Of a stretch of 47,437 nucleotides of DNA, positions 10,272 to 22,845 are shown piece after piece. A program made the position numbers and the translations under genes. The stretch spans positions 1 through 47,437 of the forward strand of contig JAITWJ010000009.1 in assembly GCA_031285325.1 (NCBI GenBank). Reading direction: 5' to 3'. Positions within the stretch are counted from its first letter, which is position 1. Every line of letters starts with the position of its first letter. Below the pieces are notes generated by a model. That model was given only the letters and a program-made list of their open reading frames with translations, was not told the origin of the DNA and did no database searches. This stretch comes from Bacteroidales bacterium. Its GTDB lineage: Bacteria; Bacteroidota; Bacteroidia; Bacteroidales; Prolixibacteraceae.

Positions 10272-10530
10272 TTTGGTATATCTTCGTAAAATATTTCGTA
10301 ACTTGGTATTGTCTTAAAAATTACACTGTTGCAAACAACAGGCAATCAAAAAAAATAATCATTTACTGTTCCGGTTGTCAGGGCATAAAGATAAATAAAA
10401 ACGGTAAGAAACCGAATTACAAAAATTAAAAACTCATTAACAGCTGTAATACATGGTTATACAATATATATATGGTGGTGAAATTAAGAATTGTCAATTC
10501 CGGATTGAACAGTTTTGGTTGCCTTATTTA
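10272..10530. other. Intergenic stretch upstream of obg
   Basis: AT-rich with no gene. GAATTGTCAATTC at 10488-10500 is a perfect 13-bp palindrome and might be an operator or a small hairpin. No convincing TAnnTTTG box for obg was found. Confidence 0.4.
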
Positions 10531-10712
10531 TTTAGAAACTGTTTTGAATGCAGGGAAACAAACAAATTACAGTTCAGGCATAATTTTTCATTATTTTTCT
10601 TTGAAGTTTAAAATGGTTTTACATACATTTATAGGAAATTTAATTAAACAGGAATAAAGCATGCAAACCTCAGCCGGAAACGATAACAGCGTGAATTATG
10701 AGTTGGCCTCCC

Positions 10713-10794
10713 CGTCACTGCGAGCCGCTTGCGGCAAAGCAGTCCAGAAACAACAACACGCAACACCGGATTGTTTCGCTCTGCTCTCAATGAC
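10713..10794. repeat. Palindromic interspersed element, copy A
   Basis: It starts CGTCACTGCGAG (10713) and ends in the inverted match CTCAATGAC (10786-10794), with GGATTGTTTCGCTCTGCTC on the right arm. It has the look of the widespread CGTCATTGCGAGG...CAATCC inverted repeats found in many bacterial genomes, and it is homologous to copy B at 11025-11117. Together the two copies flank the 41-bp array. Confidence 0.55.
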
Positions 10795-10821
10795 AAAACA
10801 GGCAAACAACACGGGTTACGG

Positions 10822-11026
10822 CTTGCGCAGTTTGCGCAACAGGCAAATGACGAGATTTAACACTTGCGCAACCCGCGCAACGACCGAATCACACGATTTA
10901 ACACTTGCGCAGCCTGCGCAACAACCAAACTACACGATTTACTACTTGCGCAGCCCGCGCAACAACCAAATCGCGAGATTTACGACTTGCGCAGTTTGCG
11001 CAACGGGCAAACGATACGGTTCCGCG
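10822..11026. repeat. Five tandem 41-bp units, each with a GC-rich hairpin core
   Basis: Units start at 10822, 10863, 10904, 10945 and 10986, exactly 41 bases apart. Each begins CTTGCGCA, then three bases, then TGCGCAAC or CGCGCAAC, so TTGCGCA and TGCGCAA form a 6-7-bp stem with a tight loop. The remaining 22 bases are also conserved (CAAA, CACGATTTA), so they are not CRISPR spacers. A period of 41 shifts the frame each unit, arguing against coding. Confidence 0.85.
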
Positions 11027-11117
11027 TCACTGCGAGGAGTTGCGAGGAACGAAGCAAAACAATCCGGAACAGCACGGCAACGCTGGATTGCTTCACCCTG
11101 ACGGGTTCGCAAAGACG
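11025..11117. repeat. Palindromic interspersed element, copy B
   Basis: The left arm CGTCACTGCGAGGAG begins at 11025 and runs through GAAGCAAAACAATCCGG. The right arm is GGATTGCTTCACCC to CGCAAAGACG (11085-11117). The arms are inverted relative to each other. Same family as copy A. Confidence 0.6.
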
Positions 11118-11164
11118 AAACGCAAAAACAACGAGAAAATAACAAACAATAAAAACTAAAAGAG

Positions 11165-11902
11165 ATGAAAATCAACAAAATCCACCTGACCCACCTCCAC
11201 AACGATGAATACTGGCAGTTTATAACACGCCTGAACGACCATATCGAGGCCGCCGGAGCCGCCGCATTGAAGATAGAGGCGCTAAACACGCGCTTTGTAG
11301 AACTCTACGGCCAGTTAGACTCGGCGTACAAGAAGATAACAGCAAGCGTCCTGTCGGCCGAAATCGATGCCGCCGACCACGCCCGAGACGAAACCTTCAG
11401 GGGGATGAAAGACGCCGTGTCTGCGGCCCTGCGCCACTTCAACCCCGAGGCAAGAGAGATGGCGCGGCGCGTGAGCATAGTGCTCGACAGCTACGGCGAC
11501 ATCACCCAGCTTGGCAAAAGCGCCCAAACCGCCGCGCTTACCAACCTTATTGGCGACCTTATCCCCAAACACTCTGCCGACTGTAAGGCTCTGGGCCTCT
11601 CGTCGTGGATAGCCGAACTCGAACGCCTGAACGTAGCCATCGAGCTGCTTATGGAGGCACGTTTCGATGAAACAACCGCCCGCACCAGCCTGCCGATGCG
11701 CGAGGTGCGGCTGGCGATGGACGCGCTCTACGGCGAGATAGTTTTCCGTATAGAGTCGCTGCAGGAAGTGTTCGGCGGCGAACCCGACGCCCCATGGAAA
11801 GCCTTCATCGAGGCAATGAACACCATAATCGACTACACCAACAACATAGTAGCCCAGCGCAAAGGACGCGCAGCAGCCGAGAAAGCGAAAGAAAATGAAT
11901 AA
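11165..11902 (+). CDS. DUF6261-family protein of unknown function
   Basis: A 245-residue soluble, mostly helical protein with no signal peptide, no Cys pair and no membrane segment. I recognise the pattern of the Bacteroidota family DUF6261: an N-terminal HLHNDEYWQF segment, AAD-ARDETFRGM near residues 70-80 and a C-terminal Lys/Ala-rich tail. Function is unknown. Base composition is far more GC-rich than surrounding genes, and it lies between the two inverted terminal sequences of the 10531-12072 insertion, downstream of hairpin repeats. Transfer with that insertion is likely. The ATG at 11165 follows AAACTAAAAGAG. A long minus-strand frame (11315-11923) is its shadow. Confidence 0.8.
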   Translation: MKINKIHLTHLHNDEYWQFITRLNDHIEAAGAAALKIEALNTRFVELYGQLDSAYKKITASVLSAEIDAADHARDETFRGMKDAVSAALRHFNPEAREMARRVSIVLDSYGDITQLGKSAQTAALTNLIGDLIPKHSADCKALGLSSWIAELERLNVAIELLMEARFDETTARTSLPMREVRLAMDALYGEIVFRIESLQEVFGGEPDAPWKAFIEAMNTIIDYTNNIVAQRKGRAAAEKAKENE

Positions 11903-12054
11903 TTGAGAATTGACAATGGACAATTGACAGTTGACAATTATTTACCCCTGAATGGGACTTTGCCACCCAACTGTTCCCTCTTTAGGGGGGCGGGGGGTAA
12001 CTGTCAACCCCGAGGCAGTTTATGGAAGAGTATAAAGAAAAACTTATCCGGAAA
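11903..12054. repeat. Low-complexity and inverted repeats after DUF6261 gene
   Basis: 11904-11941 is made of near-repeats of TTGACAATTGACA. TTACCCC (11942-11948) is inverted at GGGGTAA (11994-12000), around a CCCTC-TTTA-GGGGG hairpin. Such sequences recur between genes in Bacteroidota. No coding sequence is seen up to 12223. Confidence 0.5.
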
Positions 12055-12223
12055 TTCACAACAGTTTCTTAATATTTTCAATATTTGAGTAATTTTATCA
12101 CATTACTTTCAGGATAATTCCATAAACTTGCACTATGTTAGTTAATTATATTTAATGACTTGTGATATTCATACAATTTTGGGTTATATGAAAGGTCTTT
12201 TTTTATAAATGCGTGGTAGGTAA

Positions 12224-13396
12224 ATGAAAAAGATTATAATATTGTTTTTTGTGCTGTCTTTCGGGTTTGTTTCGTGTGTAACCGACGAACTGCTGGTTCC
12301 GCAGGAAACTGAACATACGCTTTTTATGTATATGCCTTGGTCAACAAATCTGACACAGTTTTTTAAACAAAATATTACAGACTTTGAATCAGCATTAAAG
12401 AACAATCCTTCATTAACAAATAACAGATTGATTGTTTTTTTCTCTTCGTCGGCTACTGAAGCCACAATGTTCGAACTTAAATATAAAAATGGAAATATCG
12501 TACGCAATACGCTGAAAAAGTATATAAATCCGGCTTTTACTACCGCTAATGGAATAACTTCTATTATTAACGACGTTAAATATTTTGCTCCTGCAAAATA
12601 TTATTCAATGATTGTGAGCAGTCACGGCATGGGCTGGTTGCCTGTTGACAATGAACGGTCGAGAGCATTAGGCAAGGATTATGAAAAATATCATTGGGAA
12701 TATGATGGTGTTCCTGTGACAAGATTTTTCGGAGGAACGACCCCTGACGTGCAAACTGAAGTTTCGGTACTGGCAACCGGCATTGCCAATGCAGAAATCA
12801 AAATGAATTACATAATGTTTGATGATTGTTACATGTCGTCAATTGAGGTGGCATACGATCTCAAGGAGGTAACCGACTATCTGATTGCATGTCCTACTGA
12901 AATAATGGCTTATGGGTTTCCATATCATATTGTAGGAAAATATTTGATAGAAGGAACCAATTTGCAAAGCATATGTGAAGAATTCTATAACTTTTATTCA
13001 ACATACGAACATCCATACGGAACAATTGCTGTAACGATTACGGCAGAGCTCGATAATCTTGCAGTGTTGATGAAAGAGATAAATCGAAAATTTTTGTTAG
13101 ACACATCATTACTGAACAACATTCAGAGAATGGATGGTTATTCGCCTGTAATTTTTTTTGATATGGGAGATTACGTGTCTAAACTCTGTACAGACACTAC
13201 TCTGTTGAATCGTTTCACCCATCAATTCGACCGTACCGTGCCACCTGATTTGAGTTTACATACCCCAAGTTACTATTCAATGAGCATGGGTACAGTTCCT
13301 GTAAATACATTTTCAGGCGTAACAATATCTGACCCGAGTACTAATAACAAGGCTGGGAAAAAGGCAGAAACGGCATGGTACAAAGCAACACATTGA
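12224..13396 (+). CDS. Clostripain-family (C11) cysteine peptidase, lipoprotein
   Basis: Residues 1-18 form an SPII signal peptide ending FGFVSC, so the mature protein is lipid-anchored at Cys18 or so. The caspase-fold catalytic dyad of peptidase family C11 is visible: His in VSSHGMGW (about residue 132) and Cys in MFDDCYMSS (about 205). Family members cleave after Arg or Lys; the specificity of this one cannot be read from sequence. At 390 aa it is a single-domain protein. It is monocistronic on the plus strand, between the DUF6261 insertion and the convergent FKBP genes. Confidence 0.88.
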   Translation: MKKIIILFFVLSFGFVSCVTDELLVPQETEHTLFMYMPWSTNLTQFFKQNITDFESALKNNPSLTNNRLIVFFSSSATEATMFELKYKNGNIVRNTLKKYINPAFTTANGITSIINDVKYFAPAKYYSMIVSSHGMGWLPVDNERSRALGKDYEKYHWEYDGVPVTRFFGGTTPDVQTEVSVLATGIANAEIKMNYIMFDDCYMSSIEVAYDLKEVTDYLIACPTEIMAYGFPYHIVGKYLIEGTNLQSICEEFYNFYSTYEHPYGTIAVTITAELDNLAVLMKEINRKFLLDTSLLNNIQRMDGYSPVIFFDMGDYVSKLCTDTTLLNRFTHQFDRTVPPDLSLHTPSYYSMSMGTVPVNTFSGVTISDPSTNNKAGKKAETAWYKATH

Positions 13397-13458
13397 TTTC
13401 AACCATCAAACGCACGGCCCTGCACATAAACTTTCCTGATTTAACAGTTGTTGCTTTT

Positions 13459-13950
13459 TTAATTTGAAGTTTGCAGAGGAAATACTTTATAAACTTCTAC
13501 GTCCATCAGTAAGGTTGCGAAAGACGGTATTAATCCTGAACCAACACTCTCATATGCAAGTTCCGAATTAATAATAAGGCTTGCTTTCGCACCCGGTTGC
13601 ATGTAGGTTAGCCCTTCATTAAGACCTAAAATATTTGTTGTACTCCCCACGATTACCTCATATGGTTCATAAACGCCGGTTTCATCAAATACAAAACTGT
13701 CGAGTGCCATAGTTGTATAAAATATTTGAACCCTGTCGCCAAGTTTAATTGTATCACCATAACCCTTTTGTTTTTCAATAAAATATAAACCCGAAGCCTT
13801 GGGTTCAATGTCAGGATAGTTTTTTGTAATATATTCTTTCAATTCTTTGAGTTCTAAATTTCTTGATTTTTTATAAAAATCTTCCTTGCATGAAAAAAAC
13901 ACAGCAACGGCTACTAATAAAAATATTCCTGAAAATATAACCTTTTTCAT
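13459..13950 (-). CDS. FKBP-type peptidyl-prolyl isomerase-like lipoprotein, divergent
   Basis: The N-terminus has an SPII signal (VAVAVFFSC). The rest (about 50-160) follows the FKBP fold: GDTIKLGDRVQIFYTT, GLNEGLTYMQPGAKASLIINSELAYES and a final VEVYKV strand. Several active-site aromatics are replaced, so activity is uncertain; a chaperone-like or structural role is possible. It is the last gene of the nrnA, FKBP, FKBP operon and starts two bases after its FKBP neighbour ends. Confidence 0.82.
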   Translation of the reverse strand: MKKVIFSGIFLLVAVAVFFSCKEDFYKKSRNLELKELKEYITKNYPDIEPKASGLYFIEKQKGYGDTIKLGDRVQIFYTTMALDSFVFDETGVYEPYEVIVGSTTNILGLNEGLTYMQPGAKASLIINSELAYESVGSGLIPSFATLLMDVEVYKVFPLQTSN

Positions 13951-13952
13951 TT

Positions 13953-14456
13953 TTAAAGTTTTTTTGGTTTAATATCCATCATTTCAATTATATAAATCAA
14001 CGTATTGTTTGGAGGAACATTTCCGTTCCATTTATCTCCAAATCCTAATCGGGAAGGAATCATCAACTCAACTTTAGAACCTTTTTTAATCAATTTCAAA
14101 CCATCATTCCAGCCTTCAATTGCATCTGATTCTCCGAGAACAAAACTATATTCTTTTTCGGCAAGTAAATTTGTTGAATAAAACAAAGAACCACCAATTA
14201 AATAACCATCGTATTTTACTGTAAGAGTATCGCCTGTTTCAGGGTATAGGCCATTTCCACTGTTAATAACATAATAATAAACGCCTAAATCGGTGGTATC
14301 AATATTAATACCATCTTTTTCTTTATCATTGATATAATTTGTTAGAAGAATCATTTCTTCCTGATGGGTTTGCCCTTCGTCAACTCCCTTATACAAGCAC
14401 GAAGAAAACGCAACAACCAAAACCAATATAAAAAACAGTAAATATTTCCTTTTCAT
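13953..14456 (-). CDS. FKBP-type peptidyl-prolyl isomerase lipoprotein
   Basis: An SPII signal peptide (VLVVAFSSC, residues 11-20) is followed by an FKBP domain at about 60-167: GDTLTVKYDGYLIGGSLFYST, IEGWNDGLKLIKKGSKVELMIPSRLGFGD and a closing NTLIYIIEMMDI strand. The glycine-rich loop and the GW-DGL motif are better kept than in the neighbour. It is likely periplasmic, on the inner face of the outer membrane, helping fold exported proteins. Similar small FKBP lipoproteins include GldI of gliding Bacteroidota, but no other gliding genes are here. Confidence 0.88.
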   Translation of the reverse strand: MKRKYLLFFILVLVVAFSSCLYKGVDEGQTHQEEMILLTNYINDKEKDGINIDTTDLGVYYYVINSGNGLYPETGDTLTVKYDGYLIGGSLFYSTNLLAEKEYSFVLGESDAIEGWNDGLKLIKKGSKVELMIPSRLGFGDKWNGNVPPNNTLIYIIEMMDIKPKKL

Positions 14457-14466
14457 AATTCCAATT

Positions 14467-15501
14467 TCAAATTTTAGTATTTATTAATTGATGTTTATAG
14501 TGCATTAAAAGGTGCTTAAAATTTCCCAAAGTTTCATCTAAACTTTCGCTCGATTCACCTCCCGCCGCATTTAAATGTCCTCCTCCATTGAAATGATCTT
14601 TTGAGAATTTATTAGAAGGAAATGAACCTTTTGAACGAAACGAAGCTTTAACCAGTCCTTCTTTCTCGATAAATAACGCAGAAAAAACAATATTTTTTAT
14701 TGAAAGCGGATAATTTACAAATCCCTCGTAATCACCTATCTGAAAGTTGTATTTTGCCTGTTCTTCCTTGGTAAGCGATATTACTGCGGTACGTAATTCG
14801 GTTAATATTTCCATTTTTTCATTCAAGCAGTACCCCAGTAATTTCATCCTTTCAACCGAAAAATTGTGGTATATGTTAGAGTGAATTTTATCAGCATTTA
14901 TACCATATCTTAAGAGTTCTGACACTACCCTAAAAACATTTGCCCGCGAAATATTGTGGCTGAACGAACCTGTATCGGTCAGTATTCCGGTATAAAGAGC
15001 CTCGGCAGCATTATAATTAATAGAAGATGCTAAATTGAGTTTATGTACGGTGTCAAAAATTAATTCGGCAGTTGAACAATATGATGGTTCCGAAATTATA
15101 TAATCGCAGAATAATGACGGCTGCAGGTGATGGTCAATTAAAATCTTGGGCTTTGAAAATTCCAGTAACTGTTTTTTGAGCTTGCCTGCCCGTTTTACTT
15201 CATTAAAATCAAGACAAAAAAGCAAATCGGCTTTCTTCATTTTTTCCTCGATATTTTTTTTCTGATTATCATAAATCAAAATTTCAATTTTTGAAGAAAA
15301 CCATTTTAAAAAGTAAGGATAATCATTGGGGAAAATAATACTCACATTGTGTCCGTTATTTTGCAAAATCTCAGCAAGCCCAACTGCCGACCCTACGGCA
15401 TCACCATCAGGGTTTTCGTGGGACATTATAACAATATTGTTGCATTTTTTTGCAATAAACTGCCCAACTGACTTTAAAATTTCGTTCTCAGTACCAATCA
15501 T
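14467..15501 (-). CDS. nrnA: DHH/DHHA1 phosphoesterase, NrnA-like
   Basis: Cytoplasmic Mn-dependent phosphodiesterase that degrades short oligoribonucleotides and, in many homologues, hydrolyses 3'-phosphoadenosine 5'-phosphate. The motifs are SHENPDGDAVGS (residues 29-40), DFNEV, IDHHLQPS (the DHH signature, about 125), GILTDTGSFSH and the C-terminal DHHA1 motif FNGGGHLNAAGG. A length of 344 aa is typical. The operon continues to two FKBP lipoproteins. Its -7 box CAAATGTA (15518-15525, minus strand) lies 16 bases upstream of the start codon, leaving almost no leader. Confidence 0.9.
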   Translation of the reverse strand: MIGTENEILKSVGQFIAKKCNNIVIMSHENPDGDAVGSAVGLAEILQNNGHNVSIIFPNDYPYFLKWFSSKIEILIYDNQKKNIEEKMKKADLLFCLDFNEVKRAGKLKKQLLEFSKPKILIDHHLQPSLFCDYIISEPSYCSTAELIFDTVHKLNLASSINYNAAEALYTGILTDTGSFSHNISRANVFRVVSELLRYGINADKIHSNIYHNFSVERMKLLGYCLNEKMEILTELRTAVISLTKEEQAKYNFQIGDYEGFVNYPLSIKNIVFSALFIEKEGLVKASFRSKGSFPSNKFSKDHFNGGGHLNAAGGESSESLDETLGNFKHLLMHYKHQLINTKI

Positions 15502-15515
15502 TGATAAAATTAAAT

Positions 15516-15542
15516 GCCAAATGTAAGAATTTTACATTTGGC
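15516..15542. promoter_or_regulatory. Perfect palindrome holding divergent -7 boxes for nrnA and ndk
   Basis: GCCAAATGTAA (15516-15526) and TTACATTTGGC (15532-15542) are an exact inverted repeat with a 5-base spacer. Each arm carries an exact TAnnTTTG box: TACATTTG on the minus strand (15518-15525) facing nrnA and TACATTTG on the plus strand (15533-15540) facing ndk. No clear -33 boxes were found. Confidence 0.55.
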
Positions 15543-15606
15543 GTTATGTTTAAATATTTCAATATTTTTATATTATTGTGAAATAATAATAATATATTTT
15601 AAAAAT

Positions 15607-16026
15607 ATGCCAGATAATTTAACTTTTACCATAATTAAACCAACAGCTTTCAAGAACAATCACACGGGTGCTATTTTGAAAATGATAAATGAAGCAGGAT
15701 TTGTGGTTAAGGCAATGAAAATTACAAGATTAATGCCCGGCCAGGCCGGTGCTTTTTATGCTGTACACAAAGATAAGCCTTTTTACCAGTCGCTGGTAAA
15801 TTATATGAGTTCGGGGCCAATTGTTGTTGCAATTCTTGAAAAAGACAATGCCGTAAGTGATTATCGAAAGTTGATTGGGGCAACCGACCCTACAAAAGCC
15901 GACGAAGGAACAATACGCAAATTATTTGCTACAAGCTTAGAGAAAAATGCCGTTCATGGTTCCGACAGCGACGAAAATGCCAATATAGAAAGCGATTTTT
16001 TCTTTTCGAAATTAGAACGCATATAA
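15607..16026 (+). CDS. ndk: Nucleoside diphosphate kinase
   Basis: It transfers the gamma phosphate between nucleoside triphosphates and diphosphates through a phosphohistidine. FTIIKPTAF at the start binds nucleotide, and NAVHGSDS (about residues 116-123) carries the active-site His. The 139-aa length fits. I chose the ATG at 15607 because the protein begins with the family N-terminus (MPDNLTFTIIKP); an upstream GTG/ATG extension in the same frame would run into the promoter palindrome. The C-terminus SDFFFSKLERI is characteristic of Bacteroidota enzymes. Confidence 0.95.
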   Translation: MPDNLTFTIIKPTAFKNNHTGAILKMINEAGFVVKAMKITRLMPGQAGAFYAVHKDKPFYQSLVNYMSSGPIVVAILEKDNAVSDYRKLIGATDPTKADEGTIRKLFATSLEKNAVHGSDSDENANIESDFFFSKLERI

Positions 16027-16103
16027 CATAACCAGCTACCTTACACAGGCAATAGTAAGTGCAGCAAAGTTGGCAGTAGACAATCCGGTTATTTGTAATG
16101 CCT

Positions 16104-17624
16104 TTAAAAAGGGGTATCTGGATTTGAAGAGTACTGCGAATCGAATTTGTTATTTGATGTAATTCCTGCAAAAGAGTCATCTTCAGCATTCATTTTTGAA
16201 CTAAAAGTTTGAGCATTGTAATAACCGTTTTCAAATTTAGTTTCCATGTCGGAAAATTTGGCAAGCTCCTTTTTAAATGAAAGATGAACATCGCCGGTTG
16301 CGCCGTTTCTATGTTTTGAAATAATAATTTCAGCCACGCCACGCAACGAATTTCCTGACTCATCTTCATCAATGCCGTAATATTCAGGGCGATGTATGAA
16401 AATAACTATGTCGGCATCCTGTTCAATAGCTCCCGACTCACGAAGGTCGGAAAGCTGCGGACGTTTGCCTTCACGCGATTCAACCGAACGGTTTAACTGC
16501 GAAAGCGCTATAATTGGCAAATCGAGTTCTTTGGCAATTGCCTTAAGCGAACGCGAAATGGTACTCACTTCCTGTTCGCGACTACCACGCCTGTCGGTAC
16601 CCGCAGTCATTAACTGAAGGTAATCGACTATTATTGCCTGAATGTCGTATTGCATTTTTAACCGGCGACATTTTGCCCTGAATTCGAAAATAGATAAAGC
16701 CGGAGTATCATCGATGAAAATAGGTGCTTTATCGAGGTTTGTAATTTTACGGTTAAGGTGTTCCCACTCCCAATCTTCTAAATAACCTGTACGTAATTTT
16801 TGTGCATTTATTTCAATTTCTGAAGCTATTAAACGTGTAACCAATTGCAACGAAGACATTTCAAGTGAAAAAACAGCTACCGGACGGCTATGATCAACGG
16901 CCATGTTACGGGCCATGGAAAGAACGAACGCAGTTTTTCCCATTGATGGACGTGCTGCAACAATTATCAAGTCTGTTTTTTGCCAACCGCTGGTAATACG
17001 GTCTAACCCTGTAAAACCGGAAGGAACACCGCTCAGTCCGTCCTTTTGGTTTCTTGCCTTTTCTATTTGCAGAATCGCTTCGTTCAAAACCGGTTTTATT
17101 GGTACGATTTCTTTTTTAATATTTCCTTCAGCTACCTGAAAAAGTGACGATTCAGAGAAATCAATCAGGTCGTCAATATCAATAGTATCGTCATACGACT
17201 TAGCCTGAATTTCAGAGGAAACGCGAATCAATTCCCGTTGAATAAATTTTTGTGCAATAATACGTGCATGAAATTCGATATGCGCTGCCGAAGCAACACG
17301 ACGGGTCAATTGGGTTATATAAACCGGCCCGCCAACTTCATCGAGCTGGCTTCGGTCTTTTAATTCTCTTGTAACCATCAAAAGGTCAACCGGTTTTTCT
17401 TTCCCCGATAAATTTTTTATAGCTTCATATATTTTCTGGTGTTCTTCTTTATAAAAACTTGAAGTGTCTATAATGTCGGCAACTGTTACATATGCATCTC
17501 TTTCAAGCATTAATGCACCTAAAACCGCTTCTTCAACTTCAATTGCCTGTGGCGGTAGTTTTCCATACTGTGCATTAATTTGTTCTATTGTCAGTTGATT
17601 GTTGTTTTGTTTTCGTTCGGCCAT
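16104..17624 (-). CDS. dnaB: Replicative DNA helicase DnaB
   Basis: Hexameric 5'-3' helicase at the replication fork. The N-terminal helical domain (about 20-120, PPQAIEVEEAVLGALML) is followed by the RecA-like ATPase domain (about 185-460) with Walker A ARPSMGKTAF, Walker B IIVDYLQLM, EIEINAQKLRTGYLEDWEW, ALSQLNRSVESREGKRPQLSDL and SGAIEQDADIVIFIHRPEYY. No intein interrupts it. The protein is 506 aa and ends in a low-complexity tail. It is convergent with ndk; a possible -7 box (TAAATTTG, minus) is at 17662-17669. Confidence 0.96.
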   Translation of the reverse strand: MAERKQNNNQLTIEQINAQYGKLPPQAIEVEEAVLGALMLERDAYVTVADIIDTSSFYKEEHQKIYEAIKNLSGKEKPVDLLMVTRELKDRSQLDEVGGPVYITQLTRRVASAAHIEFHARIIAQKFIQRELIRVSSEIQAKSYDDTIDIDDLIDFSESSLFQVAEGNIKKEIVPIKPVLNEAILQIEKARNQKDGLSGVPSGFTGLDRITSGWQKTDLIIVAARPSMGKTAFVLSMARNMAVDHSRPVAVFSLEMSSLQLVTRLIASEIEINAQKLRTGYLEDWEWEHLNRKITNLDKAPIFIDDTPALSIFEFRAKCRRLKMQYDIQAIIVDYLQLMTAGTDRRGSREQEVSTISRSLKAIAKELDLPIIALSQLNRSVESREGKRPQLSDLRESGAIEQDADIVIFIHRPEYYGIDEDESGNSLRGVAEIIISKHRNGATGDVHLSFKKELAKFSDMETKFENGYYNAQTFSSKMNAEDDSFAGITSNNKFDSQYSSNPDTPF

Positions 17625-17738
17625 AATCGTGTTTAAGTTTTCAACTCCTGTGTTTAATCTTCAAATTTAAAAAATCAAAAAGAAGAAATAATGTATATCT
17701 TATTACTCTTATCAACTATCGGTATTCACAATTGTTAA

Positions 17739-18725
17739 TTAAGTGCCTAATTTTTCTTCAATAATCATGGATATTACATCTGATAATTTCAATCCCATAG
17801 CCGAAACCTGTTGTGGAATAAAACTTGTTTCCGTCATGCCCGGCGTAGTGTTTACTTCGAGGAAATAAAATTTGTCATTTTTCAGTATATAGTCAATTCG
17901 GCAAATGCCTGAGCATCCGCAATAACTGTATATATCCAAACTGAGTTGCTGACATTTTTTTGAAAGGTTTTCAGTGATGCGCGCTGGTGTAATTTCTTCT
18001 GCCGCGCCGATACTGTATTTGGCTTCGTAATCGAAAAATTCATTTTTAGGAAGTATTTCAGTTACGGGAAATACAAGTTCTTTATTTTTAAATTTAACTA
18101 AACCGCAGGTAAATTCCGTTCCTTCAATAAATTCTTCAATTAACGCATCGTTGCTTTCTTGCCACGCATTTTTTACTGCGTTACTGATTTCGGCTTTGGT
18201 TTTCACTTTTGTAATTCCGAAACTTGAACCACCGGCATTAGGTTTCACAAAAACAGGAAGGCCGAGTTTTTCTACTATTTCAGCAGTATTTATTTTTTCT
18301 CCTTTTGAGATTTTTATTGATTTGGCCATTTTAACGCCGAAATTCTTAAGGTATTTGCTGCAAAACCACTTGTTAAATGTTAGAGATGAAGAAAACACGT
18401 TGCATGATGAATAACTTACCTTGAGCAGTTCGAGGTAACCCTGTAAAGTGCCGTCTTCGCCGGGAGTTCCATGTATGGTAATGTAAGCGAAATCGAAAAT
18501 TATTTTTTCACCGTTTAATATAAAGCTAAAATCAGCCTTGTTAATGTCTGCGATTTTCGTGTCGTCTTGAACAACAATCCATTCTTTGCCTCTCATTTGG
18601 ATAAGCCACGGTGTGTATTTTGAATTATCGATAGCATTAAAAACGTTTTTTCCACTTTTAACCGACACTGCATATTCTGATGAATCGCCGCCTGAAATTA
18701 CTGCTATATTTGGTTTTTTAGTCAT
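17739..18725 (-). CDS. ddl: D-alanine--D-alanine ligase
   Basis: ATP-dependent joining of two D-alanines for the peptidoglycan stem peptide. ATP-grasp motifs: HGTPGEDGTLQGYLELL (about 92-108), PNAGGSSFGITKV, IEEFIEGTEFTCG, RIDYILKND and the Mg-binding FLEVNTTPGMTE near the C-terminus. 328 aa is normal. The start overlaps the rluD stop by eight bases (18718-18725), so it is the third gene of a PASTA protein, rluD, ddl operon, a grouping conserved in Bacteroidota. Confidence 0.95.
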   Translation of the reverse strand: MTKKPNIAVISGGDSSEYAVSVKSGKNVFNAIDNSKYTPWLIQMRGKEWIVVQDDTKIADINKADFSFILNGEKIIFDFAYITIHGTPGEDGTLQGYLELLKVSYSSCNVFSSSLTFNKWFCSKYLKNFGVKMAKSIKISKGEKINTAEIVEKLGLPVFVKPNAGGSSFGITKVKTKAEISNAVKNAWQESNDALIEEFIEGTEFTCGLVKFKNKELVFPVTEILPKNEFFDYEAKYSIGAAEEITPARITENLSKKCQQLSLDIYSYCGCSGICRIDYILKNDKFYFLEVNTTPGMTETSFIPQQVSAMGLKLSDVISMIIEEKLGT

Positions 18726-19758
18726 TTCTGTTTGCTATATAGTTTTCCCATTTTTCAATTACTGTTGACATGTCTTCGGGCAGATCCGAATCAAACTGCA
18801 TAAAATTACCGGTTACCGGATGCACAAAACCAAGTGTTTTTGCATGAAGTGCCTGGCGCGGCAATATTTTAAAACAATTTTGTATGAACTGCTTGTATTT
18901 TGTATAAGTTGTACCTTTAAGTATTTTGTCTCCTCCATAGTTTGCATCGTTGAAAAGTGGATGATTGATATATTTCATGTGAACCCTGATCTGATGTGTA
19001 CGGCCTGTTTCAAGCCGGCATTCAATAAGAGATACATAACCTATACGCTTTAAAACCTTATAGTGTGTTACTGCATGTTTGCCGTATTCGCCTTCGGGAA
19101 AAACAGTAAAAACCTGTCTGTTTTTTAAACTTCGCCCGATGTTTCCTGTAATTGTACCTTCATTTTCCTGAATGTTACCCCAAATTAATGCATGGTAAAG
19201 CCGTTTGGATGTTTTTTCGAAAAACTGCAAAGCCAGCTTGTTTCTTGACTGTTCTGTTTTAGCTACAACCAGCATGCCCGATGTGTCTTTATCGATGCGG
19301 TGAACTAACCCCGGACGGGAATCTTGGCTGTTGAATAGTGGTAAATCGCGGAAATACCATGCCAGTGCATTAACAAGCGTGCCTGTGTAATTTCCATGTC
19401 CGGGATGTACTACAAGTCCCGCCTGTTTATTTACGACTATCAGGTGTTCGTCTTCATAAACAATATCAAGTGGTATTTCTTCCGGTATGATTTTCAGTTC
19501 GTGTTTAGGATAATCCATCACTATGCTGATTTCGTCGAATGGTTTCACCCTGTAATTTGATTTTACGGGAATGTTATTTACCAATATATTGCCGGCTTCG
19601 GCAGCGGTTTGCAAACGGCTTCTTGAAGCGTTGTTGATTCGATTAGAAAGAAATTTGTCGATACGGAGCAACGACTGGCCTGGGTCAACAGTAAGGTGGT
19701 AATGTTCAAACATATCACCTTCTTCCAGTTCTTCATCTTCCTCTACATAATCTTCCAT
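18718..19758 (-). CDS. rluD: RluA/RluD-family pseudouridine synthase
   Basis: Isomerises uridine to pseudouridine, most likely in 23S rRNA helix 69 if it is a true RluD. An S4 RNA-binding domain occupies about residues 28-90 (RIDKFLSNRINNASRSRLQ). The catalytic domain follows with GLVHRIDKDTSGMLVVAKT (catalytic Asp in the RIDKDTSG motif), KRLYHALIWG and LETGRTHQIRVHMKYINHPL. An acidic N-terminal extension (YVEEDEELEEGD) precedes the S4 domain. The length is 346 aa. It lies two bases downstream of the PASTA gene. Confidence 0.92.
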   Translation of the reverse strand: MEDYVEEDEELEEGDMFEHYHLTVDPGQSLLRIDKFLSNRINNASRSRLQTAAEAGNILVNNIPVKSNYRVKPFDEISIVMDYPKHELKIIPEEIPLDIVYEDEHLIVVNKQAGLVVHPGHGNYTGTLVNALAWYFRDLPLFNSQDSRPGLVHRIDKDTSGMLVVAKTEQSRNKLALQFFEKTSKRLYHALIWGNIQENEGTITGNIGRSLKNRQVFTVFPEGEYGKHAVTHYKVLKRIGYVSLIECRLETGRTHQIRVHMKYINHPLFNDANYGGDKILKGTTYTKYKQFIQNCFKILPRQALHAKTLGFVHPVTGNFMQFDSDLPEDMSTVIEKWENYIANRND

Positions 19759-19760
19759 AA

Positions 19761-20576
19761 TTAAAAATTGATTGGGCTTGGTTCTTCTACTGGCTGAAAT
19801 TTTGATGAATCAACAGAAACCCAAATATCAACAGAAGATCCGGTATATACATTAAGTGTCATGCTTGGCGATGGAGTTTGCCTCCAAATTCGTGCATTCA
19901 AAGAGTCTTCATTTGTTGTAATTGAAGAGTCGTACATAATTGTGCCCATGTTTAACATGTAACGTACCAGGTAATCTTGCGCTTCTTCTTGTGTAAAACC
20001 TGTTAAATCGGGAAGAGGCACTTCTGAATTACCATACATACGGCCAACAATCAAATCTACTGAGTCTCCTTTGTAAAGCAATTCGCCGGGGTATATTTCA
20101 TGTAAACCTGTTCTGACTTTTAATACCAAATCGTTGTATTCGGAAGGTTCATAGGTAATTTGCCCGATTTTCAGACCGCTGTTTTCGGCCCATACTATTG
20201 CCTGACGGACAGAGATGTTTGTCAATTGCGGTAGAGTTACCTGCTCGGGCATTTTAGAATTTATTATAAGTGATATAACACGGTTTTCTTTAATTCTGAA
20301 TCCTGCTTCGGGAAACTGATCGACAACTACTCCCGGAGCATCATCGTTTGAATAAACTGAATCAACAATTTCAACCATAACATTCAGATTTTTCGCCATG
20401 TTTAAGACTTCCTGTTCTGCAATGCCGGAAAAATCGGGCACAGGATACGAAACACCGTGATGGGTGTAAATTTTTAAAGCCTGCATGGTAAAGAATATAA
20501 GAACAACAATTAAAATAACTGCGGCTCCGAGGTGTTTCAGGAATATACGGCTCTTAATAAATTCTTTAAGACTCAT
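19761..20576 (-). CDS. Membrane-anchored protein with three PASTA domains
   Basis: A short cytoplasmic N-terminus and one transmembrane helix (about 17-33, AAVILIVVLIFFTMQAL) are followed by three PASTA repeats (about 42-108, 112-180, 187-258), seen by the recurring patterns VPDFSGI-EQEVLNMAKN, LPQLTNISVRQAIVWAENSGL and LPDLTGFTQEEAQDYL. PASTA domains bind peptidoglycan fragments or act as spacers. There is no kinase or transpeptidase domain. It heads the rluD/ddl operon, and ddl makes a peptidoglycan precursor, so a cell-wall role is plausible. Confidence 0.88.
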   Translation of the reverse strand: MSLKEFIKSRIFLKHLGAAVILIVVLIFFTMQALKIYTHHGVSYPVPDFSGIAEQEVLNMAKNLNVMVEIVDSVYSNDDAPGVVVDQFPEAGFRIKENRVISLIINSKMPEQVTLPQLTNISVRQAIVWAENSGLKIGQITYEPSEYNDLVLKVRTGLHEIYPGELLYKGDSVDLIVGRMYGNSEVPLPDLTGFTQEEAQDYLVRYMLNMGTIMYDSSITTNEDSLNARIWRQTPSPSMTLNVYTGSSVDIWVSVDSSKFQPVEEPSPINF

Positions 20577-20602
20577 GTTTTTTACATCATTTAAACGAAC
20601 TG

Positions 20603-20610
20603 CAAAAATA
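20603..20610 (-). promoter_or_regulatory. -7 box for the PASTA/rluD/ddl operon
   Basis: CAAAAATA on the plus strand reads TATTTTTG on the minus strand, an exact TAnnTTTG, 27 bases before the PASTA start codon. A -33 box is not evident. Confidence 0.4.
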
Positions 20611-20697
20611 CATTAAATATGGTATGCTCTGATTTATTAACAGTTTTTATGCATACAAATTTTAAATTAGTTGTTGCGTTCTTAAAAATAAAATAAA

Positions 20698-21040
20698 CTT
20701 AGAAACTGTTTCTAATTTGCCAAATAAGTTTTTGAAACTTTCCATGCCTGTACACAGTAGTTTTCGGGAACTTCCGCTACCCTCGCGCAGTAGTGCGCGG
20801 CACTTTCGGGAAGTTCCGCTACCTTGTTCGAGCCCTCGGAGATACTTTCGGGAGTTTCCGCCACCTTGTGCAAGACCTCGGGGAACCTTTCGGGAGTTTC
20901 CGCTACCTTGTGCAAGACCTCGGGGAACCTTTCGGGAGTTTCCGCTACCTTGTTCGAACCCTCGGAGATACTTTCGGAAGTTTCCGCTGCATGTTTCGAG
21001 GGGTAAAAGATTTATCAGGTAAATTCAAAACAGTTTTTTA
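20698..21040. mobile_element. 343-bp insertion-like element with about 38-bp inverted ends and a 42-bp repeat array
   Basis: CTTAGAAACTGTTTCTAA (20698-20715) faces its inverted partner ATTCAAAACAGTTTTTTA (21023-21040). Inward of these, TTGCCAAATAAGTTTTT (20716-20732) matches the complement of 21006-21022 (TTACCTGATAAATCTTT) without gaps at most positions. The same inner sequence occurs inside the right end of the 10531-12072 element. There is no coding capacity for a transposase. I infer a small non-autonomous element of the same family. Confidence 0.5.
20762..21001. repeat. Six tandem 42-bp GC-rich units
   Basis: Units begin TTTCGG at 20762, 20804, 20846, 20888, 20930 and 20972, always 42 bases apart; units 4 and 5 are nearly identical. 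A shorter degenerate unit precedes at about 20731. The consensus opens CTTTCGGGAGTTTCCGCTAC. Because 42 is a multiple of three, both strands stay open (minus strand 14-residue repeat KVAETPE...), but the only starts are TTG and the frame stops at the array edges, so I treat it as non-coding. Confidence 0.85.
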
Positions 21041-21195
21041 TAAAGATTTTAACCTACAACTGACAAAATGGCTCAAAAGTGGTTTGCAACTCATGTCGCA
21101 AGTATAAAAGATGGCGAAAAGCGAGAGTAATGAATTATGGTTTTGATAAGATAGGTGTAATTAATAAACTAAAATTTCTTGTAAAAGGCCTATAA
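21041..21195. other. Spacer between the repeat element and the SulP gene end
   Basis: AT-rich, no gene and no strong terminator seen for the minus-strand SulP gene. Confidence 0.4.
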
Positions 21196-22845
21196 TTATT
21201 GCTTTTTTAATGATTCGGCATATTTCAGAGCATATTCGAGCGCATTATCAAATAAACTGAAAATGCATTCATCTCCTACCATATCAACAATTTTCGATTT
21301 ATGCAAATCTTCATTTACCTTTTCGTTTACTCCCGACAATATCATTTTTATTCCTGAATCTTTTAAAATTCTCAAGGCATCACTTAAATTATGTAATCCG
21401 GTAGCATCAACAAACGGAACGTGCCTCATTCTTATAATCATTACTTTGCTCTTTAGTCCCATAGATTTTAAGACTTCACAATATTGCTTGGCAGAGGCAA
21501 AAAACAGAGGGCCGCTTATTTCGTAAATACCTATTTCTTTTGGCAATTTAGAATAATCTTCAATAATATCGGTATCTACAACTGCCGGAATGGTTTTGCC
21601 CATGTCGGCCATTCGTTTCATAAAAAGCAGGGCTGAAAGAACAACGCCAACCTCAATTGCAACAGTCAAATCAACCAGTACTGTAAGTAAAAATGTGGAT
21701 AATAAAACTATGATATCAAAAACAAAACCTTTTAGAATTGAACGAAAGGTGCGCCACTCACTCATATTGTAAGCTACAACTATTAAAATTCCGGCCAGGC
21801 ACGACATGGGTATCAGCCTAACCCATTGTGCAAAAAACAACATTATCAGTAATAAAACTATGGCATGGGTTATTCCGGCTATTGGAGTACGGCCGCCGTT
21901 TTTAACATTAGTGGCTGTGCGGGCAATTGCACCTGTTGCAGGTATGCCTCCAAAAAATGGGGTAACAATGTTGGCAATACCCTGCCCTATGAGTTCAGTG
22001 TTTGAGCGGTGGTGTCCGCCAATCATTCCATCAGCTACAACAGCAGATAACAACGACTCAATTGCGCCAAGCAAAGCTATGGTTATGGCCGGCTGAAAAT
22101 AATATCCTAAGTTAGAAATGTCTATTTTAGGGAAACTGAATTGAATAGAGTTTGGTATTTCTCCAAAAAAAGATTCAATAGTAGTTACAGGTAGCTTGAA
22201 AAACTGAACAGCAAGTGTTGTAAGCAGAATTGCAATAAGAGAACCCGGTATTTTTTTTATGTAATTTTTTGAAAATATTACAACCAGAATTGTAACAAAG
22301 GTAATTATTACCGCATAAATATTAAATGAGTGCAAGTTGTTGAAATAAACTATCCATTTCTCGATGAAACCACTCGGTAACGATTCAATGTCAAGCCCAA
22401 AAGCATCTCTTATTTGAGTTGAAAAAATTACAAGCGCTATCCCGCTGGTAAAACCAACAATCAGAGGATAGGGAAAATATTTAAGCAATGAACCCAATTT
22501 CAGTAACCCGAAAACAATTAAAAAAATACCCGCCAAAATTGTAGAAACCAGTAATCCGTCGAAACCATACTGATTAATTATGCTGTAAATTATAACAATA
22601 AATGCCCCGGTAGGACCGCCAATCTGAACACGGCTACCACCAAACACCGATATAATAATACCGGCAACAATAGCAGTTACTAATCCTTTCTCGGGCGAAA
22701 CTCCAGATGCAACTGCAAAAGCAACAGCCAGAGGAAGGGCAACAACCCCTACAACAATTCCGGCCATTAAATCCGAAGAAAATTGCTTGCTTGAATAACC
22801 TTTCTTTAAAATACTAAAAAACTTTGGGTTGAATATATTTTCCAC
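21196..22845 (-). CDS. SulP-family anion transporter with STAS domain
   Basis: Inner-membrane secondary transporter of the SLC26/SulP family, taking up sulfate, bicarbonate or another anion. About eleven to twelve hydrophobic segments span residues 30-420, with the sequence GVVALPLAVAFAVASG near the start and GGIPATGAIARTATNVKNGGRTP in the middle. A cytoplasmic STAS domain ends the protein (about 440-545, FVDATGLHNLSDAL). The frame can be opened by a TTG at 22872, but that TTG overlaps the -7 box, so I place the start at GTG 22845 (reading MENIFNPKFF). The substrate is not determined by sequence. Confidence 0.88.
   Translation of the reverse strand: MENIFNPKFFSILKKGYSSKQFSSDLMAGIVVGVVALPLAVAFAVASGVSPEKGLVTAIVAGIIISVFGGSRVQIGGPTGAFIVIIYSIINQYGFDGLLVSTILAGIFLIVFGLLKLGSLLKYFPYPLIVGFTSGIALVIFSTQIRDAFGLDIESLPSGFIEKWIVYFNNLHSFNIYAVIITFVTILVVIFSKNYIKKIPGSLIAILLTTLAVQFFKLPVTTIESFFGEIPNSIQFSFPKIDISNLGYYFQPAITIALLGAIESLLSAVVADGMIGGHHRSNTELIGQGIANIVTPFFGGIPATGAIARTATNVKNGGRTPIAGITHAIVLLLIMLFFAQWVRLIPMSCLAGILIVVAYNMSEWRTFRSILKGFVFDIIVLLSTFLLTVLVDLTVAIEVGVVLSALLFMKRMADMGKTIPAVVDTDIIEDYSKLPKEIGIYEISGPLFFASAKQYCEVLKSMGLKSKVMIIRMRHVPFVDATGLHNLSDALRILKDSGIKMILSGVNEKVNEDLHKSKIVDMVGDECIFSLFDNALEYALKYAESLKKQ

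Follow-up and report, generated by a model that had tools for sequence, protein, structure and literature searches.

The described elements closest to those considered here are the miniature inverted-repeat transposable elements (MITEs) MITE464/PgRS and BrickBuilt of Porphyromonas gingivalis, which have IS5 ends and contain 41-nt and 23-nt repeats, respectively (excerpt of PMC4596501). In the open-licence papers searched, nothing closer was found on MITEs, tandem repeats, or the end sequence of the present elements, and no report of a pairing between DUF6261 genes and repeat arrays was found; one match to the end sequence concerned a Bacillus transaldolase, a different topic, and a paper matching DUF6261 in its full text also dealt with something else. 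The stretch analyzed here (the window) comprises 47,437 nt of contig JAITWJ010000009.1 from a Bacteroidales bacterium of the Prolixibacteraceae (assembly GCA_031285325.1), and it contains two GC-rich islands with the same inverted ends, one of which encloses a gene of the uncharacterized Pfam family DUF6261. Judged from sequence, the two islands are very probably copies of one nonautonomous IS5 element, the first of which carries as its cargo a recurring locus composed of a repeat array and a DUF6261 gene.

The initial annotation had placed four copies of one end sequence in the window, in two inverted pairs. A search with the 18-mer TTTAGAAACTGTTTTGAA (at most 3 mismatches) bore this out, with matches at 10531-10548 (+), 12055-12072 (-), 20698-20715 (+), and 21024-21041 (-), the fourth being one base off the position first given; shuffled sequences had a mean of 0.29 matches, and 0 of 100 shuffles reached 4. 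With the element edge set at GAAAC..., element 1 spans 10535-12068 (1534 bp) and element 2 spans 20702-21037 (336 bp), and both are bordered by identical 3-bp flanks, TTA/TTA, at 10532-10534 and 12069-12071 for element 1 and at 20699-20701 and 21038-21040 for element 2. The terminal inverted repeats of element 1 lie at 10535-10551 (+; an A-like end, with an A-end profile match at 10535-10565) and at 12052-12068 (-; a B end, with a B-end profile match at 12008-12068 and an E value of 5e-14, this end being among the 22 used to build that profile). Those of element 2, both B-like, lie at 20702-20718 (+) and 21021-21037 (-), and their B-end profile matches at 20702-20745 and 21005-21036 concern ends that were not used in building the profile. 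These three profile matches agree with the inward extension that had been noticed at three of the four ends.

The contrast between the islands and the AT-rich DNA around them was likewise as described, with GC contents of 0.52 and 0.56 inside and 0.34 and 0.33 in the flanks. Tandem Repeats Finder (TRF) detected GC-rich tandem arrays in both islands: one of 41/82 bp at 10816-11014, the units of which contain the palindrome TTGC-GCA-...-TGC-GCAA (at 10823, 10905, and 10987), and one of 42 bp at 20802-20988, the units of which cluster with those of the array that precedes the DUF6261 gene of contig C69 in the same genome. The DUF6261 gene of element 1 (11165-11902, +, 245 aa; PF19775, E value of 1.8e-34) is the sole open reading frame (ORF) inside the pairs with a Pfam match, and no ORF of element 2 exceeds 104 aa, in keeping with the earlier observation that neither pair encloses a transposase. 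An AATTGAC heptamer repeat was detected by TRF 3' of the DUF6261 gene, at 11901-11939. An Rfam scan of 10400-21200 gave no match near the cutoff.

The ends belong to a known transposon family. A complete 899-bp insertion sequence in genome G190 (locus L131) has both ends, GAAACTGTTTTGAATTG and GAAGCTGTTTTGATTTC, which bracket an IS5 transposase gene and are flanked by TAA/TAA; its 257-aa ORF matched the IS5 model NF033580 with 234.9 bits (NCBIfam cutoff, 110) and also matched PF13340 and PF01609. In addition, an end in G100 leads into the start of an IS5-type transposase (PF13340), and two decayed IS5 relatives, one a truncated copy and the other interrupted by stops, occur near similar ends in the source genome. 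The truncated IS5 transposase gene on contig C25 is immediately preceded by two degenerate copies of the end in inverted orientation (L109, 3355-3385), separated by one base. Flanks were compared at 52 convergent pairs, which were accepted if each 17-bp end had no more than 4 mismatches, hence including some chance pairs, and from which flank duplicates had been dropped. Identical 3-base flanks, as TNA duplications, were present in 25 of the 52, compared with a shuffled mean of 12.7 and with 0 of 10,000 shuffles as high, and outside the source genome the flanks agreed in 14 of 23 pairs (shuffled mean, 5.4). The short target duplications that the initial annotation proposed to look for are thus found both at the window pairs and in the wider family, and a TNA target duplication is typical of one IS5 subgroup. 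On sequence grounds, then, the window copies are nonautonomous IS5-family elements (MITEs), with inverted ends of about 17 bp (GAAACTGTTTTGAATTT) and 3-bp TNA flanking duplications. From the shared ends, the duplications, and the complete copy elsewhere, we infer that an IS5 transposase supplied in trans would move these ends, the array-DUF6261 locus being carried as cargo.

The source genome (G000) is small and repeat-rich, with 2.16 Mb in 149 contigs and a completeness of 97%; 20 sampled congeners have 3.0 to 7.3 Mb, with two of the smallest only 70-73% complete. The closest named relatives by ObgE come from Maribellus, Draconibacterium, and other Prolixibacteraceae. In the source genome, the 18-mer had 133 hits with 3 or fewer mismatches (62 on the plus strand and 71 on the minus strand), compared with 11 for the reversed pattern, so that the terminal sequence is far from confined to the window. 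The form AGAAACTGTTTTGAATTT (at most 1 mismatch) was present in 38 of 198 Bacteroidales genomes and amplified in few, with counts of 79 in the source genome, 115 in G069, 34 in G168, 20 in G090, 13 in G162, and 12 in G100; the reversed pattern had 0 in all six. The 17-bp form of the end had at most 2 matches in each of 21 congeners. Among 69 ends in the source genome at up to 3 mismatches, 18 were of inner type A, 22 were of type B, and 29, including some plain chance matches, were of neither, and the two ends of many elements differed in inner type. Such mismatched ends bear on the idea that the inverted sequences are recombination sites of invertible, phase-variable segments and not transposon ends. 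The pairs are convergent, inverted, and mostly 150-1500 bp apart, which would suit such segments, but the mixed inner types, the TNA duplications in 25 of the 52 pairs, and the similar ends found on IS5 elements both complete and decayed make this idea hardly credible.

Paired ends enclose arrays in the source genome, as had been proposed, and the outcome named in the initial annotation as refuting, with the ends absent elsewhere or unpaired and unconnected to arrays, did not occur. In a sample of 761 kb from contigs picked partly for end matches, there were 18 convergent pairs, which together take up 9.2 kb. Of the 55 tandem arrays in this sample (TRF score of at least 80 and period of at least 15), 15 lay inside a pair, 14 lay no more than 1 kb from an end, and 26 lay further away; furthermore, an array of the 41/42 type was inside 15 of 23 source-genome pairs inspected singly. 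The extension of this pattern to related Bacteroidales held for the ends, which occur there as described above, and failed for the arrays: tandem arrays were present in 0 of 17 pairs from G090, G069, G168, and G170, which indicates that arrays are not a property of the ends. G069 and G168 (L079-L083 and L088-L094) have large families of 150- to 650-bp pairs with the same ends and no tandem arrays in the pairs examined.

The arrays instead accompany DUF6261 genes. A set of 50 distinct DUF6261 proteins of at least 200 aa was assembled, with at least one from each of 20 matching genomes (4 from the source genome, 18 from G195, 4 from G064, and one or two from each of the other 17, best-scoring copies being favored). 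With a TRF score of at least 50, a 41/42-type array was found in the 500 bp upstream of 35 of the 50 genes and downstream of none. A test of self-identity at fixed lag (60-bp window, at least 60% identity, lags of 40-43) detected arrays within 600 bp upstream of 45 of the 50 and, again, downstream of none; when the best of 35 lags was taken, it fell within 40-43 for 46 upstream regions and 3 downstream regions, with about 5.7 expected by chance. The lag test thus detects arrays that TRF misses, and it was passed at two later congener loci, with 0.68 at lag 42 and 0.63 at lag 43; one later congener locus had visibly retained the palindrome, with diverged spacers. In G195, the lag threshold was reached by 16 of 18 DUF6261 genes and by 24 of 302 sampled genes, the latter being additionally required to have their best lag at 40-43 (Fisher test, 2e-14). 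The source genome is array-rich to a similar degree, with such an array upstream of 46 of 573 sampled genes (about 8%). As background, 10 other DUF6261-bearing genomes were sampled with one stretch each, away from DUF6261 matches (195 kb in all), and 10 genomes lacking a DUF6261 match likewise with one each (200 kb in all); quantized TRF arrays numbered 0 in both sets, and sites at lag 41/42 numbered 1 and 3, respectively, in repeats that also scored at other lags. In addition, one array that had been counted as gene-less in a 400-kb sample lies upstream of a frame-broken DUF6261 gene. Five DUF6261 matches were found in the congener G225. By these comparisons, the array and the DUF6261 gene constitute a two-part locus that recurs across the Bacteroidales independently of IS5 ends.

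The arrays hold their spacing and vary in sequence between loci, and a large number of their units are palindromic. Periods of 41, 42, 82, 84, 123, or 126 were found for 41 of the 55 source-genome arrays, the units of which formed mutually unrelated clusters (drawn at 0.62 identity, with shuffled units reaching at most 0.55). The units of the largest cluster, comprising 14 arrays of 41 bp, consist of a 17-bp palindrome, TTGC-NNN-3-NNN-GCAA, and a 24-bp spacer. A total of 61 17-mers of the form TTGC-9-GCAA were located within 14 of 17 arrays of the 41-type period, and 50 of the 61 had a fully complementary inner triplet, compared with 1 of 21 outside arrays. Because units in one array are not independent, stems at the level of arrays are the better count; there were seven different main stems between arrays, and occasionally two in one array, and both sides of the stem change together in this main source-genome cluster. 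Non-Watson-Crick cells made up 13 of 183, and 3 of these 13 were G.T, which is no excess. Complementary 17-mers of the TTGC-GCAA kind numbered 0 of 18 in G225 and 0 of 15 in G195, indicating that this stem family is not general. An identical palindrome core (TGCCGA...TCGGCA) occurs in a 41-bp array of Prevotella nigrescens FDAARGOS_1486, which overlaps the first bases of the annotated DUF6261 gene WP_004367630.1 and lies mostly upstream of it. Just before that array (L377, 2006-2401), there is a 120-bp repeat in an annotated gene.

These properties bear on whether the arrays arose neutrally, by slippage in intergenic DNA, and adjoin DUF6261 genes incidentally. The sampled genes with an upstream array, some 8% in both the source genome and G195, fit such an origin, but the period is fixed at 41/42 with almost none at other lags, downstream arrays are lacking at all 50 genes, TRF found none of the 41/42 type in the stretches of the 10 other DUF6261-bearing genomes, and the stems are complementary, and this origin is therefore strongly disfavored. 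Coding repeats of 14 aa were also considered as a general reason for the arrays and were excluded, since 41-bp units shift the frame. Further arrays with periods that are multiples of 21 bp, namely, 63 on contigs C130 (12342-12602), C1 (29443-29640), and C89 (18477-18712) and 21 on contig C63 (25887-26061), suggest that a 21-bp step may be general in the source genome. Contig C36 (L264, 17603-19094) contains long tandem repeats of 285 bp and 336 bp, possibly coding, and a 42-bp array that precedes a DUF6261 gene marks the start of contig C123 (L086, 1-150); arrays may therefore cause breaks in the assembly of this genome.

The distributions of the ends and of DUF6261 are separate. In the genus, DUF6261 is common, 17 of 23 genomes having 2 to 10 matches each, and the ends are rare; the DUF6261-rich genomes G093, G195, G082, and G186 have at most 1 end match each, and the end-rich genomes G069, G168, G090, G100, and G162 have no DUF6261 match at an E value of 1e-5. 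A role for DUF6261 as the mobility protein of the element, acting on the arrays or on the ends, would suit its multiple dispersed copies, which have no conserved neighbors beyond pairs of loci, and its presence and absence at one syntenic site (below). Against such a role stand the separate distributions, the IS5 transposase that already accounts for the ends, and the 18 DUF6261 loci of G195, which have no family-wide shared flank and among which a single 85-bp flank match joins two; the role is thus improbable. The same 18 loci led to rejection of DUF6261 as a general cargo of mobile elements with shared ends. Targeting of the loci to tRNA genes was likewise rejected, with a tRNA gene at just 2 of 49 loci. 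Three IMG/VR scans returned no relative that would indicate a viral origin; an unannotated fecal record in a phage set and a Prevotella plasmid record did match. In a fecal record labeled bacteriophage (L378, 3410-4906), the DUF6261 gene lies beside a small gene, which we take to be HU-like, and TRF detected no 41/42 array. No convincing relative of DUF6261 was found in the PDB (best E value, 0.037).

Copies and remnants of the locus point to its movement and loss. A 638-bp element on contig C1 (L024) contains a second copy of the left end, array, and leader of element 1 and approximately the first 20 DUF6261 codons, followed by a B end, and L087 contains an A end with a fragment of the contig C69 type of DUF6261 gene. 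Arrays far outnumber intact DUF6261 genes in the source genome, and 5 of 39 solo arrays there adjoin a DUF6261 N terminus in the right orientation (tblastn E values of 1.5e-7 to 0.011), with one more found by DNA only; in control windows, such an N terminus was found in 0 of 410 by tblastn, and two windows matched by DNA. At least a portion of the solo arrays are accordingly relics of deleted DUF6261 genes, with IS5 ends carrying part of the arrays. In G195, an array and its gene lie between a tRNA-Glu gene and a gene that is presumably GroES-like; at the corresponding site in the related G093, matching stretches are separated by a 330-bp gap with no such ORF. This presence-absence comparison is a single case, a second synteny query (L182) having had no usable flank match. 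An apparent protein encoded by the B end was rejected, as its reading frame breaks upstream in most copies listed. With these results, the proposal of the initial annotation that the window holds one element family with variable cargo, moved in trans, stands with regard to the family, its variable content, and the missing transposase, movement in trans being presumed; the cargo is no loose assortment, since array and DUF6261 recur together as a locus.

Several observations weigh against this reading of the elements and the locus. For the ends, an intact transposase was not found in the source genome (searched with an N-terminal 65-aa query only, in a 149-contig assembly); flank agreement in that genome alone was modest, at 11 of 29 pairs (mean, 7.1, a level that about 4% of shuffles reach); the flanks of the L024 element, TTA/TTG, are not identical; and the congener DNA that aligned beside element 1 was coding only and revealed no empty site. 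For the link between ends and genes, just one of the four intact DUF6261 genes in the source genome, that of the window, lies within a full pair; L086 has a one-sided end, with the other side off the contig, and L084 and L085 have no convincing end nearby. For the pairing of array and gene, TRF alone credits just 35 of the 50 genes and failed at the two later congener loci, the source genome and G195 have many arrays without a DUF6261 gene, and no relic was present beside 33 or 34 of the 39 solo arrays.

As to function, a tentative proposal, possible although short of an even chance, is that the array works at the DNA level to control the DUF6261 gene next to it. Its palindromes, which follow one another in the DNA at intervals of about four helical turns, would be binding sites for DUF6261 or for a partner, the stems drifting separately at each locus. 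The exclusively upstream position, the constant spacing of about four helical turns, the strand symmetry of the palindromes, and the lack of a G.T excess favor a role in DNA. Several points tell against this proposal: DUF6261 is slightly acidic (median isoelectric point, 6.1), and no known DNA-binding domain was shown in it; the stems within one genome are many and different; among 35 linked arrays, only 57% had folding z-scores under -1.5; a promoter search at DUF6261 loci yielded no decisive position; and a fold model from a single sequence, all helical with a mean predicted local distance difference test (pLDDT) score of 42.6, was too poor to use.

The main rival to a DNA-level control array is that the array is transcribed and that its RNA acts together with DUF6261, much as in a type III toxin-antitoxin system. 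The layout and the similar unit size accord with it, three ToxIN-family loci having units of 34-36 nt in 2.8 to 5.5 copies (excerpt of PMC5086642). Furthermore, the gap from array to start codon is just 28-54 bp in 6 of 36 loci, which makes an intervening promoter unlikely there, and the loss of the gene with retention of the array in some copies would be expected of a harmful protein; the one presence-absence case between related genomes also speaks for it. However, the terminator expected between array and gene was present in just 4 of 36 loci (shuffled mean, 0.25), with one after the gene in 18 of 50; no toxin family was found for the window protein in Pfam and NCBIfam, and none that was convincing for six family members in PADLOC and PHROGs; and folding z-scores were equal on both strands (-1.35 and -1.41), with no G.U excess in the stems. 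This rival is accordingly rather unlikely.

The broader picture, for which we see roughly even chances, is of an undescribed two-part locus of the Bacteroidales in which a fast-diverging helical protein is coupled to an array of fixed unit length, with a sequence private to each locus and held mainly by self-complementarity. Such a locus would come and go as a unit and decay to solo arrays, and it would account for the 41-nt minisatellites found in IS5 MITEs, perhaps also in P. gingivalis. The origin of minisatellites in bacterial MITEs has apparently been unexplained so far, and part of those seen here trace to a gene-linked array. In addition, DUF6261 gains a genomic partner that is found reproducibly, so that its function can be tested. 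The constraint seen here, with spacing fixed and sequence free apart from self-complementarity, is of an unusual kind and can be studied in many natural copies, at least 18 of these genes being present in one genome.

Repetitive extragenic palindromic (REP) sequences and their RAYT genes likewise combine palindromic repeats next to a single gene with solo genomic copies, and the DUF6261 arrays resemble them in this respect. The difference is that DUF6261 is apparently all helical, according to the low-confidence model, and has no match to a transposase family in Pfam or NCBIfam. The type III toxin-antitoxin systems ToxIN, CptIN, and TenpIN are arranged alike, a single protein gene being preceded by tandem repeats of almost constant length (excerpt of PMC5086642), but DUF6261 is unrelated to their endoribonuclease toxins (ToxN, CptN, and TenpN) in all sequence libraries searched, and array-DUF6261 loci usually have no terminator between array and gene and have palindromes without strand bias or G.U excess. 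With IS5-family insertion sequences of the NF033580 group, the window copies share similar inverted ends and the TNA duplication, as seen in the full copy in G190 with PF13340 and PF01609, but they lack a transposase and differ in their interior. The nearest likeness is to MITE464/PgRS and BrickBuilt, which likewise have IS5-family inverted ends, no transposase, and internal tandem repeats, in about 10-20 copies; a link between the 41-nt repeats of MITE464 and a gene is not mentioned in the excerpt (PMC4596501). The initial suggestion of a candidate undescribed element thus gives way as to kind, since the ends are of the IS5 family and IS5 MITEs with 41-nt repeats have been described in P. gingivalis. 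The MITE464 ends, GAGACTGTTGCA, and those of the window family, GAAACTGTTTTGAA, differ in sequence and are of a related kind, not of the same family, and, unlike MITE464, the window family can have a DUF6261 gene lying inside it and has unit sequences that vary between clusters of copies.

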